From Oceanihabitans sp. 2_MG-2023 (GTDB lineage Bacteria; Bacteroidota; Bacteroidia; Flavobacteriales; Flavobacteriaceae), in assembly GCF_030547245.1 (NCBI RefSeq), contig NZ_JAUOQT010000002.1, positions 496,001 through 560,000 of the forward strand: a stretch of DNA of 64,000 bases, written 5' to 3'. This document shows positions 58,846 to 62,832 of this stretch, one piece after another. The position numbers and the translations under genes were made by a program. The notes below the pieces were generated by a model. The model was not told where the DNA came from, made no database searches, and saw only the letters and a program-made list of their open reading frames with translations. Every line of letters starts with the position of its first letter. Positions within the stretch are counted from its first letter, which is position 1.

Positions 58846-59208
58846 ATGGCTAAAGATAAACACGAAAATAATAATACCTCAACGCAAGATTCTAATGTGG
58901 AAGCTTCATCTAAAATTGACGCAATAAAACAGCTCATTTTTGGAGAGAATATGCAAGCTTATGAAATTGAGTTTGAAGCCGTTAAAAAGGATATTCTTTC
59001 CAAGAAACAAGAGTTAGAAAACTTGATGGATGATGTTCGAAAAGAATTACTTCAAAACATCGACAATTTAAGTACCGACATTAATATTAGAATTACAGAA
59101 ATTGAAGATTCTTTTAATGACAAAGCAGATAGCCTTGACGATAAAAAATTAGACAGAAAATTGTTTGGTGATTTATTAATAAATCTTGGCGAAAAAATAA
59201 GCAAGTAA
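58846..59208 (+). CDS. Small coiled-coil protein of the GTPase operon
   Basis: A 120-residue acidic helical protein, probably a coiled coil from about 40 to 100 (heptad-rich KKDILSKKQELENLMDDVRK). The segment IDAIKQLIFGENMQAYEIEF resembles the N-terminus of the next protein, suggesting a shared interaction surface. No catalytic motif or export signal. First gene of a four-gene operon (18-bp gap to the next). Function unknown. Confidence 0.75.
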   Translation: MAKDKHENNNTSTQDSNVEASSKIDAIKQLIFGENMQAYEIEFEAVKKDILSKKQELENLMDDVRKELLQNIDNLSTDINIRITEIEDSFNDKADSLDDKKLDRKLFGDLLINLGEKISK

Positions 59209-59226
59209 TACCAATTACTAGCACTT

Positions 59227-60045
59227 ATGAATCAAGAAGATAAACTTAAAGTTCTTAAAGACATCTTACTAACAGATGAAAGAGAATATGCTTTATCTAT
59301 TCATGAAAAAATTAAAATTCTTGAAGAAACATTAAATAAAAAAAATAACTTATCGGAAAAGGTAGACCCTATTATAGAAGACAAACTAAATAAATTTGTT
59401 CTTGAAATACCAGACACCTTAGGACCAACGATTACAGAAGCTTTAAAAACCGAGATAAAGAACTCTCAAGACGCAGTAGTTGAAGTATTGTACCCTATTT
59501 TAGGTAGAATGATAAAAAAATATATTCAAAATGAATTTAAACTTTTATCCGAAAAAATAAACCAACAAATAGACAATACTTTTTCTTTTAAAGGCTTTAA
59601 ACGAAAATTTAAAGCTAAAGCTTCAGGGGTTAGCGAAGCAGATTTAATTGTTGCCCAGCAATTTGCTCCTAAATTAAACCAGTTTATGGTTATTGAAAAA
59701 GGATCTGGTTTACTTATCTCTAAATACTCTAAAACTGATGATATAGACGAAGATATGGTTGCAGGTATGCTAACAGCAATTAAAAGTTTTGTAGAAGATG
59801 CTTTTAAAAAAAACGACCAAAACCTAGAACTTATTGAGTATGAAACCTATACTATATATCTTCAAAATTTTTCGTCTTATTATATCGCTGTTGTAATTTC
59901 TGGCATATTTAATGCTACTCATAAAAGTGAATTAGAAGATAAACTTCTAGATTTTGCTCAAAACATTATTAACAAAACAGATTTAAATAATAAAGAATCT
60001 TTAACTAAAAAATTAAAAGCATATTTTGCTAATGAATATCTCTAA
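59227..60045 (+). CDS. Helical protein with roadblock/longin-like C-terminus, next to the GTPase
   Basis: A 272-residue cytoplasmic protein. Residues 1 to about 145 are helical (KVLKDILLTDEREYALSIHE). From about 150 the pattern is strand-strand-helix-strand-strand-helix, as in roadblock/LC7 or longin domains: FMVIEKGSGLLISKYS, then MVAGMLTAIKSFVEDAF, then TIYLQNFSSYYIAVVISG. Roadblock proteins are the regulators of MglA-type GTPases, and the next gene encodes such a GTPase with 14-bp overlap. The roadblock call is from reading secondary structure by eye. Some databases label relatives as OmpA biogenesis proteins, which nothing here supports. Confidence 0.7.
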   Translation: MNQEDKLKVLKDILLTDEREYALSIHEKIKILEETLNKKNNLSEKVDPIIEDKLNKFVLEIPDTLGPTITEALKTEIKNSQDAVVEVLYPILGRMIKKYIQNEFKLLSEKINQQIDNTFSFKGFKRKFKAKASGVSEADLIVAQQFAPKLNQFMVIEKGSGLLISKYSKTDDIDEDMVAGMLTAIKSFVEDAFKKNDQNLELIEYETYTIYLQNFSSYYIAVVISGIFNATHKSELEDKLLDFAQNIINKTDLNNKESLTKKLKAYFANEYL

Positions 60046-60526
60046 AAAAATTGTTTTACTAGGTCATTTTGGCGTTGGTAAATCTTCGCTTATTAGACGT
60101 TTTGTAGAAGACACTTTTACAGACAATTATAAAGTGACTATTGGTGTACATATATTAAAAAAAGAAGTCGTAATTTCTGAAAAAGAAACTGTTTCCTTGA
60201 TCATTTGGGATTTAGAAGGTAACGACGATATTACAAACACTAGAGCTTCCTACATGTTAGGTACTAGTGGTATTATTTACGTTTTCGACCTAACAAGACC
60301 TGCAACTTACCAACAATTAGAAAGTGATTTAAACTTTGTTAAAACAAACTATCCAAATATTCCTGTAAAAGTTGTTGGAAACAAAAACGACTTAGTTACA
60401 AAAGACTTTATCAAACAGAACAGCGATGTTTTTAAACCGTTTGTCGATTTTTATACAAGTGCAAAAGCAAATACTAAAGTTAATGATCTATTCTCTACTT
60501 TAGCTAAACAACTACTTAAACTATAG
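60032..60526 (+). CDS. Ras/Rab-like small GTPase
   Basis: A 164-residue GTPase starting at ATG 60032. All five G motifs are present: P-loop GHFGVGKSS (11-19), switch I Thr36 in YKVTIGV, DLEGN (60-64), NKND (117-120) and SAK (143-145). The switch I sequence is strikingly Rab-like. Two changes matter: the position of Ras Gly12 is Phe, and that of the catalytic Gln61 is Asn, both expected to weaken hydrolysis and make the protein dependent on a partner. No lipidation signal. It overlaps the upstream gene and is four bases from the kinase gene. Confidence 0.9.
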   Translation: MNISKKIVLLGHFGVGKSSLIRRFVEDTFTDNYKVTIGVHILKKEVVISEKETVSLIIWDLEGNDDITNTRASYMLGTSGIIYVFDLTRPATYQQLESDLNFVKTNYPNIPVKVVGNKNDLVTKDFIKQNSDVFKPFVDFYTSAKANTKVNDLFSTLAKQLLKL

Positions 60527-60530
60527 AATA

Positions 60531-62045
60531 ATGCTTGCAGAACACAAAATAGCTCACGAAAAAGCTATTATTCAATATCTAATTTTAGATACAAAAGGTA
60601 ATATCTTAGAGTCTGACGATGCGTTCTTTTCAAAAATAATAAAAAAAAACATAACTAGTTTACACCCTTTTTTTGAAAGTACTACTACCTTATTAGAAAC
60701 TAAAAAGGATAAAGAATTTATATTTTCATGTATTCATTTAAATACTAAAAACAAAGATATTATTGCAGATGTTACACTTAAAACTTTTCAAGATAAAAAC
60801 CCCTTATTAATAATACAAGATCTTACAACACATTATAACAACTACCAACTAACTGCACAAAAGAGAAACGAATCTGTTATAAATTCTCAAATACTTGAAT
60901 TAAAAAACAAATATTTAATAGAGAAAGAAGAATTTAAAAACACTTTTATTGCAAATTTTAGTCACGAAATTAGAGAACCTCTTTCTGGTATTGGAACTTT
61001 TGTAGATATTTTAAGTAAAACAAATCTAGATTCCCAACAAAAAGATTACTTAAATATTATTAATACATCCTCCAATCATTTAAAACATATGATTGAAGAC
61101 ATTTTAGACATATCTAAAATTGAAGTTGGAAAACTTAATCTAATAGAAGATACTTTTAATGTAAATGAGTTTTTAGAAGAAATAATTTTTACCTATAAAA
61201 TAAAAGCAGAAGAAAAAGGACTTGAGTTTTTTAATAACATAGGCAGTAAATTACCAGAAAGACTTATTGGTGATCCATACAGATTAAAACAAATACTTGG
61301 CAATTTACTAGACAACGCTATTAAATATACAACTAAAGGAAGCATCAATTTAGATATTTCCTTAAATCAAATAAGAGCGAACAAAGCATCTATTCATTTT
61401 GCAATTACAGATACAGGAATAGGTATTGAAGAAGAAAACCTAGAAAAAGTATTCAATAGTTTTACACAAATAGACCAAAGTCAACAAAATAAAGGTACAG
61501 GATTAGGTTTAGCAATAGTTAAAAACCTTGTAAAATTAATGGAAGGTAACATCTCTATTAATAGTACTTTTAAAAAAGGCACTACTTTAGCATTAAACTT
61601 AAGCTTTAAATTAGATAATACAAAGAAATCTAAAAAAGCACAAACTCCTACGCAAGAAAAACTAGAAAAAGATAAATACCATATAATTTTAGTAGAAAAC
61701 TCAGAAATAACACAACTCTCTGTACTTAAAATTCTAGCAGCACAAAGAAGGTTTTATTTAGACATAGTTTCTAACCCAGAAAATTTAATAGAAAGCTTAA
61801 AAAACCAACATGCAGATCTAATTTTAATGGATATTAATTTACCTAATACATCTGGCGACCTGCTTGCTAGAGAAATTAGACAGCTTCCAGAAAAAGAAAT
61901 CAAAAAAATACCAATTATAGCATTAACAGGTAAAGTATTTCCCGAAGATTTAAAACGCTATAAAAAAGCAAAAATAAACGATGTTATTAGCAAACCTTTC
62001 GACGAAAAAAGCTTACTAGAAACCATCACAAAATATTTAAAATAA
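60531..62045 (+). CDS. Soluble hybrid histidine kinase of the GTPase operon
   Basis: A 504-residue hybrid kinase with no membrane helix. A PAS-like N-terminal domain (about 12-100), a short coiled coil, and HisKA with His145 in FSHEIREPLSG. An HATPase domain follows (N box LGNLLDNAIKY, G boxes DTGIGI and GTGLGLAIV). The C-terminal receiver (about 385-504) has the phosphoacceptor in LILMDINLP and the conserved Lys in SKPFDE; its acidic pair is Glu-Asn in VENSE instead of two acidic residues. Last gene of the operon, before a strong terminator. The downstream regulator is not in this window. Confidence 0.93.
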   Translation: MLAEHKIAHEKAIIQYLILDTKGNILESDDAFFSKIIKKNITSLHPFFESTTTLLETKKDKEFIFSCIHLNTKNKDIIADVTLKTFQDKNPLLIIQDLTTHYNNYQLTAQKRNESVINSQILELKNKYLIEKEEFKNTFIANFSHEIREPLSGIGTFVDILSKTNLDSQQKDYLNIINTSSNHLKHMIEDILDISKIEVGKLNLIEDTFNVNEFLEEIIFTYKIKAEEKGLEFFNNIGSKLPERLIGDPYRLKQILGNLLDNAIKYTTKGSINLDISLNQIRANKASIHFAITDTGIGIEEENLEKVFNSFTQIDQSQQNKGTGLGLAIVKNLVKLMEGNISINSTFKKGTTLALNLSFKLDNTKKSKKAQTPTQEKLEKDKYHIILVENSEITQLSVLKILAAQRRFYLDIVSNPENLIESLKNQHADLILMDINLPNTSGDLLAREIRQLPEKEIKKIPIIALTGKVFPEDLKRYKKAKINDVISKPFDEKSLLETITKYLK

Positions 62046-62078
62046 AAAAAGGCGAACTAATTAGTTCGCCTTTTTTGT
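62042..62078. terminator. Bidirectional terminator after the GTPase operon
   Basis: AAGGCGAACTA/TAGTTCGCCTT stem (nearly perfect palindrome) with A and T runs. Confidence 0.92.
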
Positions 62079-62096: not shown

Positions 62097-62552
62097 TTAT
62101 TTGTTCATCGTTTTAATTTCTTCCATAAAAGTATCTAAATCTACTTTATTACTAACTAAAGTAAGTGCTTTATCTACTACATATTTTACGTTTATAGCAG
62201 AAAACCCTAAACCAACAGCTATTTTGCGTAAAACAATCTCTTCATGATCTCCTTTAATATGATCTACATGTACCATTCTAGCCAAATCAAACAAACGCTC
62301 TAAACGTCTATCGTAAGAAGTTGGAGGATTGATATTATGAGAAGCATAATCCTTTAAAATCGTGGCATAATCCCCTTCGCTAATATCTAAATTTCTAGCT
62401 AAACGATCTAAAAACGCCTTCTCCTCATCAGTAATAACACCATCATCCATTGCAACTCTAACTATTGATGCAAAATGATCTTCATTACGCTTTTTAAACC
62501 CACTATCAAATAAATCTGAAATTGACATATATTCTTTTTTTAAGTGCGACAA
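62097..62552 (-). CDS. TerB-like protein
   Basis: A 151-residue all-helical protein with the TerB/DjlA-N pattern: ASIVRVAMDDGVITDEEKAFLDRLARNL, with acidic residues as in the metal-binding site of tellurite-resistance TerB. No other ter genes are close, so resistance is unlikely to be its only job. Single gene convergent with the GTPase operon; upstream lies repeat copy D. Confidence 0.85.
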   Translation of the reverse strand: MSHLKKEYMSISDLFDSGFKKRNEDHFASIVRVAMDDGVITDEEKAFLDRLARNLDISEGDYATILKDYASHNINPPTSYDRRLERLFDLARMVHVDHIKGDHEEIVLRKIAVGLGFSAINVKYVVDKALTLVSNKVDLDTFMEEIKTMNK

Positions 62553-62602
62553 AGATAATTAAACTAAACACTTTTTAAAAGATTATTAATAGCTTTTTTT
62601 AT

Positions 62603-62708
62603 GGCATTACACTACTTCGCTTAAGCTACGTAACGTCGCGCTTTCCGTTAATAGTTTTGGCTTAAAGCGCACACGCGCCAAAAGCTAACCACTACAATCC
62701 CTAATGCA
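62603..62708. repeat. Intergenic palindromic repeat, copy D
   Basis: Outer arms GCATTA/TAATGC, inner arms TTTTGGC/GCCAAAA, core CGTCGCGCTTTCCG and distal box CACTACAATCCCTAATGCA. The rest of the 62553-62832 gap is AT-rich, with a TATATTTA near-match to a -7 element before mfd. Confidence 0.8.
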
Positions 62709-62832
62709 AAATGTATCGCTTCGTTAAGGGATTCTAATAAAAAAAACAAACGATATAAAAGAAGAAAAAAACAGACATCAATTCTTAACAAAAAAAAAAT
62801 GGAAGTAGTATATTTACAAAAAAATTATTTAG

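Follow-up and report, generated by a model that had tools for sequence, protein, structure and literature searches.

The Rup GTPases are the prokaryotic group closest to the eukaryotic Rab, Ras and Rho proteins, according to the accessible text of two sources (PMC4316618; PMC4915359). The earlier of these, a 2014 survey by Wuichet and Sogaard-Andersen, sets out in its accessible part a Group 1 of Rup GTPases that lack the glutamine of the G3 motif and have three conserved neighbouring genes. One encodes a cytoplasmic coiled-coil protein and another a protein whose conserved domain, of unknown type, often has a membrane helix and an OmpA domain after it; the remaining one codes for the output, typically a histidine kinase or a GGDEF/EAL protein, whose N-terminal region contains an invariant glutamine (PMC4316618). 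The same text counts Bacteroidetes among the holders, likens the arrangement to the actinobacterial conservon, couples none of 121 Rup sequences to MglB and states that, as of 2014, no Rup GTPase had been characterized (PMC4316618). We have analysed a stretch of 64,000 nucleotides from Oceanihabitans sp. 2_MG-2023 (contig NZ_JAUOQT010000002.1, positions 496,001 to 560,000; hereafter the window) containing an operon-like block of four genes, numbered 1 to 4, which encode a helical protein, a protein with a predicted longin/roadblock domain, a Rab-like GTPase and a soluble hybrid histidine kinase. Judged by its gene content, this block belongs, as a representative from the Flavobacteriaceae, to the Group 1 Rup systems, and we propose, as a probable account of the whole, that it forms a small-GTPase relay with an interchangeable output enzyme.

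The window shares with the Group 1 systems a conserved-domain gene, a GTPase without the G3 glutamine and an output protein with an N-terminal glutamine; in gene 1 it has a putative counterpart of the coiled-coil gene. A preliminary description of this DNA, made from the sequence alone, had placed a Rab-like GTPase, a roadblock-like partner and a kinase in one operon, which our analysis bears out for a conserved operon and a partner of predicted roadblock/longin fold; its further statement that no pathway of this make-up had been described has to be withdrawn, since the four-gene neighbourhood has been known since 2014 and was compared with the conservon in the accessible part of the survey (PMC4316618). 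What appears to be new is the prediction of a longin fold and the variety seen in the fourth gene, and a search of the open-licence literature returned no paper linking Rup with longin domains, nor a longin domain with a histidine kinase (one paper was unrelated by its title and abstract). The gene arrangement was described correctly: the list of open reading frames shows four tightly packed genes on the plus strand within 58846-62045, the ATG of gene 3 (60032) lying inside gene 2 to give a 14-bp overlap and genes 3 and 4 being separated by 4 bp. All four proteins are without a membrane-like segment, the highest mean hydropathy over 19 residues being 1.26, so that the kinase was rightly called membrane-free.

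The preliminary description had suggested a neighbourhood comparison across relatives, and in this comparison the four genes stay together. All four are present in 79 of 80 named loci, which are the best 80 of 387 confirmed relatives, and gene 1 lies upstream of gene 2 in every one of the 80. Gene 2 was found in 13 of a further set of 60 genomes, the source genome included; one of these matches was spurious and was left out (G026; E 3.5e-4, 24% identity, internal stop), and in the 11 close relatives with gene 2 the order 1-2-3-4 was kept in all, one kinase being cut by a contig end (the two sets share three genomes, L041, L042 and L043 being the same as L016, L024 and L018). In a sample of the class, gene 2 matches occurred in 14 of 395 genomes, including the source genome and two weak matches (G070 and G097, E 5-7e-4) that were left out of the locus counts. 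Among the 12 resulting loci from 11 other genomes, five have all four genes (L121, L122, L128, L129 and L130), one has gene 2, GTPase and kinase (L132), and four from the large genomes of one family (L123-L126) have gene 2, the GTPase and a lone copy of the N-terminal domain of the kinase (134-185 residues), with no adjoining kinase and no recognizable gene 1. A sample of the phylum gave matches in 14 of 395 genomes, three of them already found in the class sample, and in the 12 loci from the 11 new genomes a GTPase lies near gene 2 in nine. The GTPase was also matched in four of 72,556 plasmid records; the three plasmid loci described here, from Nostoc, Mesorhizobium and Rhizobium (the fourth match, H2, was left out), run gene 1, long gene 2, GTPase, and kinase or cyclase.

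Gene 3 matches the Pfam Ras family (1.9e-31) and has Rab1B as its best match in the PDB (1.1e-22). Its motifs are GHFGVGKSS (G1), WDLEGN (G3), NKND (G4) and SAK (G5), the G3 motif carrying asparagine at the position of the catalytic glutamine. All 101 aligned GTPase rows, with the window and some near-identical sequences among them, have the aspartate of G3 (Asp60); in a second alignment, of 23 rows including the window and ten overlapping loci, all 23 have the aspartate and two have the glutamine. According to the accessible text of the survey, this aspartate is conserved in GTPases other than MglA (PMC4316618), and as it is missing in MglA we have rejected membership of the MglA/MglB systems, in agreement with the preliminary description, which had set this operon apart from them. 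The source genome has one strong Ras-matching GTPase; the next match (6.4e-8) lies in a longer frame.

The product of gene 1 is a soluble, probably helical protein, the counterpart of the coiled-coil protein of the Group 1 systems, and a coiled coil is plausible, as residues 36-116 contain no proline. Its profile matches, all weak, are to SMC-, apolipoprotein- and ATP-synthase-b-like sequences. Neither gene 1 nor gene 2 has a Pfam match above the curated cut-off. Gene 2 consists of a helical N-terminal half and a C-terminal domain of predicted longin/roadblock fold, as seen in an AlphaFold2 model built from 80 sequences (the window and 79 of 85 listed non-redundant rows, L152, L153, L156 and L163 being excluded for their long matched stretches). 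The mean predicted local distance difference test score (pLDDT) of the model is 79 and its predicted template modelling score 0.50; taken in blocks of ten residues, pLDDT is 62-93 across residues 151-270 and 87-93 across 201-270. The predicted topology of the C-terminal domain is beta-beta-alpha-beta-beta-beta-alpha-alpha, as in a longin with two C-terminal helices; for this topology, and for the leading helix of roadblocks, we follow the accessible text of PMC10933270.

When the model was used in the VIA fold search, residues 149-272 matched longin domains, the best being the AP-4 mu chain (Z 13.0, 115 residues aligned, 2.4 Å), with the Rab exchange factor Mon1-Ccz1 (Z 12.1), TRAPP (about 10.7) and a Lokiarchaeal longin (10.5) further down; adaptor, COPI, TRAPP and similar rows are presumed by us to be longin domains where the row title is silent. 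Among the 50 rows listed, the best roadblock row, and the only one recognized, was 7yh1_A (Z 10.0, 96 residues aligned). We prefer a longin to a roadblock because the longin alignments cover the second C-terminal helix, whereas that with 7yh1_A ends at residue 246; a longin is thus favoured for the predicted domain, without the matter being settled. Across the fold matches, sequence identity ranges from 7 to 16%; Foldseek gave modest E-values (best 2.2e-4) with longins and roadblocks mixed. An earlier model from 12 sequences (mean pLDDT 55.8), superseded by the present one, likewise put longins first. A single-sequence search of the PDB with gene 2 gave no match, and the 80-sequence profile gave chance-level PDB matches only, with no longin or roadblock among them; as sequence searches add no support, the longin assignment is one of structure prediction. 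PF03259 (Robl_LC7) has no match in gene 2 or anywhere in the source genome, and a match in one of 149 genomes from the class sample. The roadblock/longin-like C-terminus of the preliminary description, which had named an unrelated predicted structure as the outcome that would speak against it, is retained as a predicted fold, with longin favoured. The Group 1 systems as surveyed often carry a membrane helix and OmpA on this protein; gene 2 of the window is soluble and lacks the extension. Long homologues from other classes and phyla add a hydrophobic stretch (six of six scanned, mean hydropathy 1.93-2.66), followed by OmpA in five (L130, L152, L156, L164 and L165; L129 is without). The domain that the survey called unknown is, in the window, predicted to be longin-like.

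The kinase encoded by gene 4 has HisKA (1e-18, His145), HATPase_c (4.4e-27) and a C-terminal receiver (Response_reg, 6.8e-19, Asp434). Ahead of these lies an N-terminal domain (residues 2-128). By clear profile matches it recurs in relatives, both within their kinases and standing alone, and the source genome has a single match to it, at this locus; gene 2 likewise has one match there. The N-domain alignment (the window and 38 of 81 non-redundant rows) was compared end to end by hhalign with a PAS profile built from 16 domains of the source genome, giving a probability of 67 and E 5e-5 over 90 columns, with two controls below 0.3, and we apply the term PAS-like with moderate confidence. A search of the PDB with the N-domain profile gave only chance-level matches. 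One weak Pfam match to Robl_LC7 (E 0.019, in one of 39 members) was not taken up. Gln110 of this domain is kept in 97 of 102 rows, and in 15 of 16 sequences of a forced alignment of six representatives with ten chosen distant N-termini, other outputs included (L128 has threonine). A second candidate, Gln15, is kept in 99 of 102 rows, but in the 16-row alignment the sigma-54 proteins and the distant kinases have glutamate or aspartate in its place. We regard the Gln110 column as the glutamine that the 2014 survey describes as invariant, matched to its description rather than to its sequence logo, and propose that the N-domain is the GTPase-facing module of the kinase.

The fourth gene is exchanged in relatives. 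A kinase with Hpt stands in this place in L122 and L164, and in L128 a kinase with a receiver, with REC-LytTR and Hpt genes nearby; sigma-54 activators take its place in L152-L154 and an adenylate cyclase in L165 and L166, while in L155 and L156 the kinase is accompanied by a REC-sigma-54 regulator. Sigma-54 activators, adenylate cyclases and the lone N-domain extend the Group 1 outputs, none of the three being named in the accessible text of the survey. Duplications are found as well. In L108 (4612-8933) and L117 (4633-9562) the main GTPase-kinase pair is separated from gene 2 by another GTPase and by lone N-domains, one or two in number, GTPase and N-domain being duplicated together. L081 and L114 have a lone N-domain in addition to the kinase and no second GTPase, and Ulvibacter-type loci have a lone N-domain beside the full kinase. 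In six of seven loci shown (L044, L045, L047-L049 and L051, from Bizionia, Lacinutrix and a related record) the complete hybrid kinase is directly followed by another one that has the same N-domain.

Our working hypothesis is that gene 2, cytosolic in this organism, and the gene 1 protein form an input platform, and that gene 2 controls, by binding, the nucleotide state of the Rab-like GTPase, acting perhaps as a guanine-nucleotide exchange factor, a GTPase-activating protein or a scaffold, in response to a putative stimulus. The GTP-bound GTPase would then engage the PAS-like N-domain of the kinase, where Gln110 may complete the active site of a GTPase that is without a glutamine of its own, an idea put forward in the accessible text of the survey (PMC4316618), and this binding would alter kinase autophosphorylation. 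Phosphate may subsequently pass from His145 to Asp434, to an Hpt protein and to a response regulator, partners that we infer. A phosphorelay is suggested for these last steps because the output in the window is a hybrid kinase and because Hpt and LytTR genes or domains occur in some relatives. Since transcription activators and cyclases can also occupy the fourth place, the signal probably runs from gene 2 through the GTPase to the output; the preliminary description had left open whether the kinase is output or input, and these replacements favour output.

A number of observations count against this proposal. In the open-licence literature searched, neither experimental work on any Group 1 Rup system nor physical or genetic evidence was found. 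The coiled coil assigned to gene 1 by the preliminary description is plausible from its proline-free stretch, yet it did not reach significance in a simple heptad test, 271 of 2000 shuffles doing as well. In gene 2, a helix at residues 137-145 ahead of the first strand of the model is a roadblock-like feature, and the 50 Foldseek rows shown include many roadblocks, 11 of them chains of one MglB entry (6hjm_A, E 8.1e-4); the protein of the window also lacks the membrane and OmpA part that suggests envelope input. The G3 glutamine is present in nine of the 101 aligned GTPase rows. For the N-domain, none of 39 members matches the Pfam PAS models at E up to 1, and the distant outputs obtain weak scores with its profile (6.8e-5 for the Nostoc kinase, 0.007-0.012 for the cyclases, 0.02-0.03 for the sigma-54 proteins of L152 and L153), which up to E 10 has no match in L154 or in the kinases of L155, L156, L159, L160, L162 and L163; the figure of 15 in 16 for Gln110 comes from an alignment that was forced. 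The REC-LytTR and Hpt genes of L128 are cut off from the kinase by an open reading frame on the opposite strand. Nor is the neighbourhood without gaps: the GTPase lies on the opposite strand in L155, L156, L162 and L163; L131 has genes 1 and 2 only and L127 gene 2 alone, with no GTPase in the fetched stretch; L157, L158 and L161, all from one genus, have genes 1 and 2 (long form) and no GTPase in the 12.7 kb fetched, the gene being perhaps elsewhere or lost; and L062 (4572-6236) keeps genes 1 and 2 and is missing the GTPase and kinase, with the TerB-like gene directly after gene 2, possibly a recent loss.

The reading that competes most directly reverses the flow: the kinase would sense, its phosphorylation would control gene 2 and through it the GTPase, and the GTP form would be the output. 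This is how the actinobacterial conservon is modelled, with the kinase as the upstream input in the accessible text of PMC13343842; a PAS-like domain could bind a ligand, and gene 2 of the window has no envelope part. There is also a likeness in composition, the conservon (AGPS, CvnA-D) combining a kinase, a roadblock-superfamily protein, a small GTPase and a further protein in a similar mixture of two-component and G-protein elements. However, the same place is filled in relatives by sigma-54 activators and adenylate cyclases, which are outputs with weakly similar N-termini, and the N-domain also occurs without a kinase, so that we regard the reversed flow as unlikely and infer for the window a direction opposite to that of the conservon model. 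The components differ too: CvnD is of the MglA family, CvnB an MglB-type roadblock and the conservon kinase an input, whereas in the window the GTPase is of Rup type, its partner is longin-like and the fourth gene belongs to an exchangeable position. Membership of the conservon was considered and rejected, the GTPase (Ras, 1.9e-31, with the G3 aspartate) not being an MglA-family CvnD; CvnA has membrane helices and a C-terminal extension with LPxR, and the kinase of the window has no membrane stretch and ends in a receiver, its LPER lying inside the kinase core with none in the last stretch. With respect to CvnB-type Robl_LC7, gene 2 has no PF03259 match and its predicted fold favours longin, roadblocks being among the matches. 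We keep the conservon as a functional analogue.

A polarity switch of the MglA/MglB type, in which the GTPase and a roadblock-superfamily GTPase-activating protein place surface machinery and the kinase is RomR- or Frz-like, would likewise combine a small GTPase and a regulator from the roadblock/longin superfamily. It draws on the relatedness of the longin and roadblock folds and on the MglB entry among the Foldseek matches, but against it stand the invariant G3 aspartate and Rab-like motifs, the lack of a PF03259 match in the source genome, the VIA ranking in favour of longin and the helical N-terminal half of gene 2; no motility gene was recognized among the neighbours of the operon, and we think such a switch very unlikely. 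The polarity role raised in the preliminary description finds no support in this analysis. That an ordinary hybrid kinase merely lies beside an unrelated GTPase operon might be suspected from the high synteny within the family, where a gene that we take to be fbp is found within 300 bp upstream in 65 of the 80 named loci and the TerB-like gene in 70. Yet the four-gene block is intact in L020-L023, where the flanks are unlike those of the window, the genes occur together in other classes and phyla, and the kinase N-domain is found once in the source genome, here; the conservation makes chance adjacency hardly credible. A defence or other conflict system using the GTPase and kinase would fit the patchy distribution in the class sample, although none of the four proteins has a PADLOC match and the position is stable within the family, and we rate it just as remote. 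The relay from gene 2 through the GTPase to an exchangeable output is accordingly the reading that we retain.

The coordinates of the features are collected in the table. For the single promoter and single terminator of the preliminary description the results were less clear. A promoter scan of the region gave 23 sigma-70-like sites against 25.5 in shuffles and none could be singled out, so the single promoter is not upheld; because the preceding gene, presumably fbp, is on the same strand and ends 72 bp before gene 1, co-transcription of the four genes with it is possible. The terminator stands in part: a palindrome of 14 pairs follows the kinase, assigned by the scan to the minus strand and with a T run visible on the plus strand, but terminator-like sites in the region are not enriched (two, shuffle mean 1.5), so that the call depends on the strength of this site itself. 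The convergent TerB-like gene beyond it (62097-62528, minus strand; Pfam TerB, 1e-6) is the one found in 70 of the 80 named loci. Other flanking genes are, we assume, aspK, gnat and mfd. The intergenic stretch 62600-62745 has partial copies at three further sites in the genome (68-80% identity) and is possibly a small dispersed repeat.

Table. Features of the four-gene locus (positions in the window)
Feature	Position	Strand	Length	Basis
Gene 1	58846..59208	+	120 aa	Open reading frame
Gene 2	59227..60045	+	272 aa	Open reading frame
Predicted longin domain, gene 2 residues 147-272	59665..60042	+		AlphaFold2 model, fold search
Gene 3, Rab-like small GTPase, Rup type	60032..60526	+	164 aa	Open reading frame, Pfam Ras
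Gene 4, soluble hybrid histidine kinase	60531..62045	+	504 aa	Open reading frame, Pfam
PAS-like N-domain of kinase, carries Gln110 (codon 60858-60860)	60534..60914	+		hhalign against PAS profile
Palindromic terminator-like site between kinase and convergent TerB-like gene	62045..62076	.		Scan, sequence

The likeness of this pair to the longin-type Rab exchange factors of eukaryotes (TRAPP, Mon1-Ccz1 and Fuzzy-Inturned) and to Asgard longins lies in the combination of a longin with a Rab-like GTPase and in fold-search Z scores of about 10-12; the system described here differs in being bacterial and encoded in an operon with a signalling enzyme. A common origin is possible. At 7-16% identity shared descent is not demonstrated, and as the longin, roadblock and PAS folds are themselves related, similarity of fold alone cannot settle it. 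The far-reaching version, in which the pair has the same descent as TRAPP and Mon1-Ccz1, gene 2 acts as a homodimeric exchange factor of longin type and the partnership predates or lies outside the eukaryotes, serving first in envelope-to-cytosol signalling with plug-in outputs, we consider a speculative and quite unlikely extension.

The point of note is that a partner of predicted longin type is encoded next to a bacterial Rab-like GTPase. This prediction gives a concrete idea of how Rup GTPases may be regulated, and it has a bearing on where membrane traffic acquired its pairing of Rab with longin. That the fourth gene can be exchanged suggests a G-protein relay of general use in bacteria, similar to the conservon but differently built, and the version in Oceanihabitans, soluble and with one match for each part in the genome, would be a simple system in which to test it.

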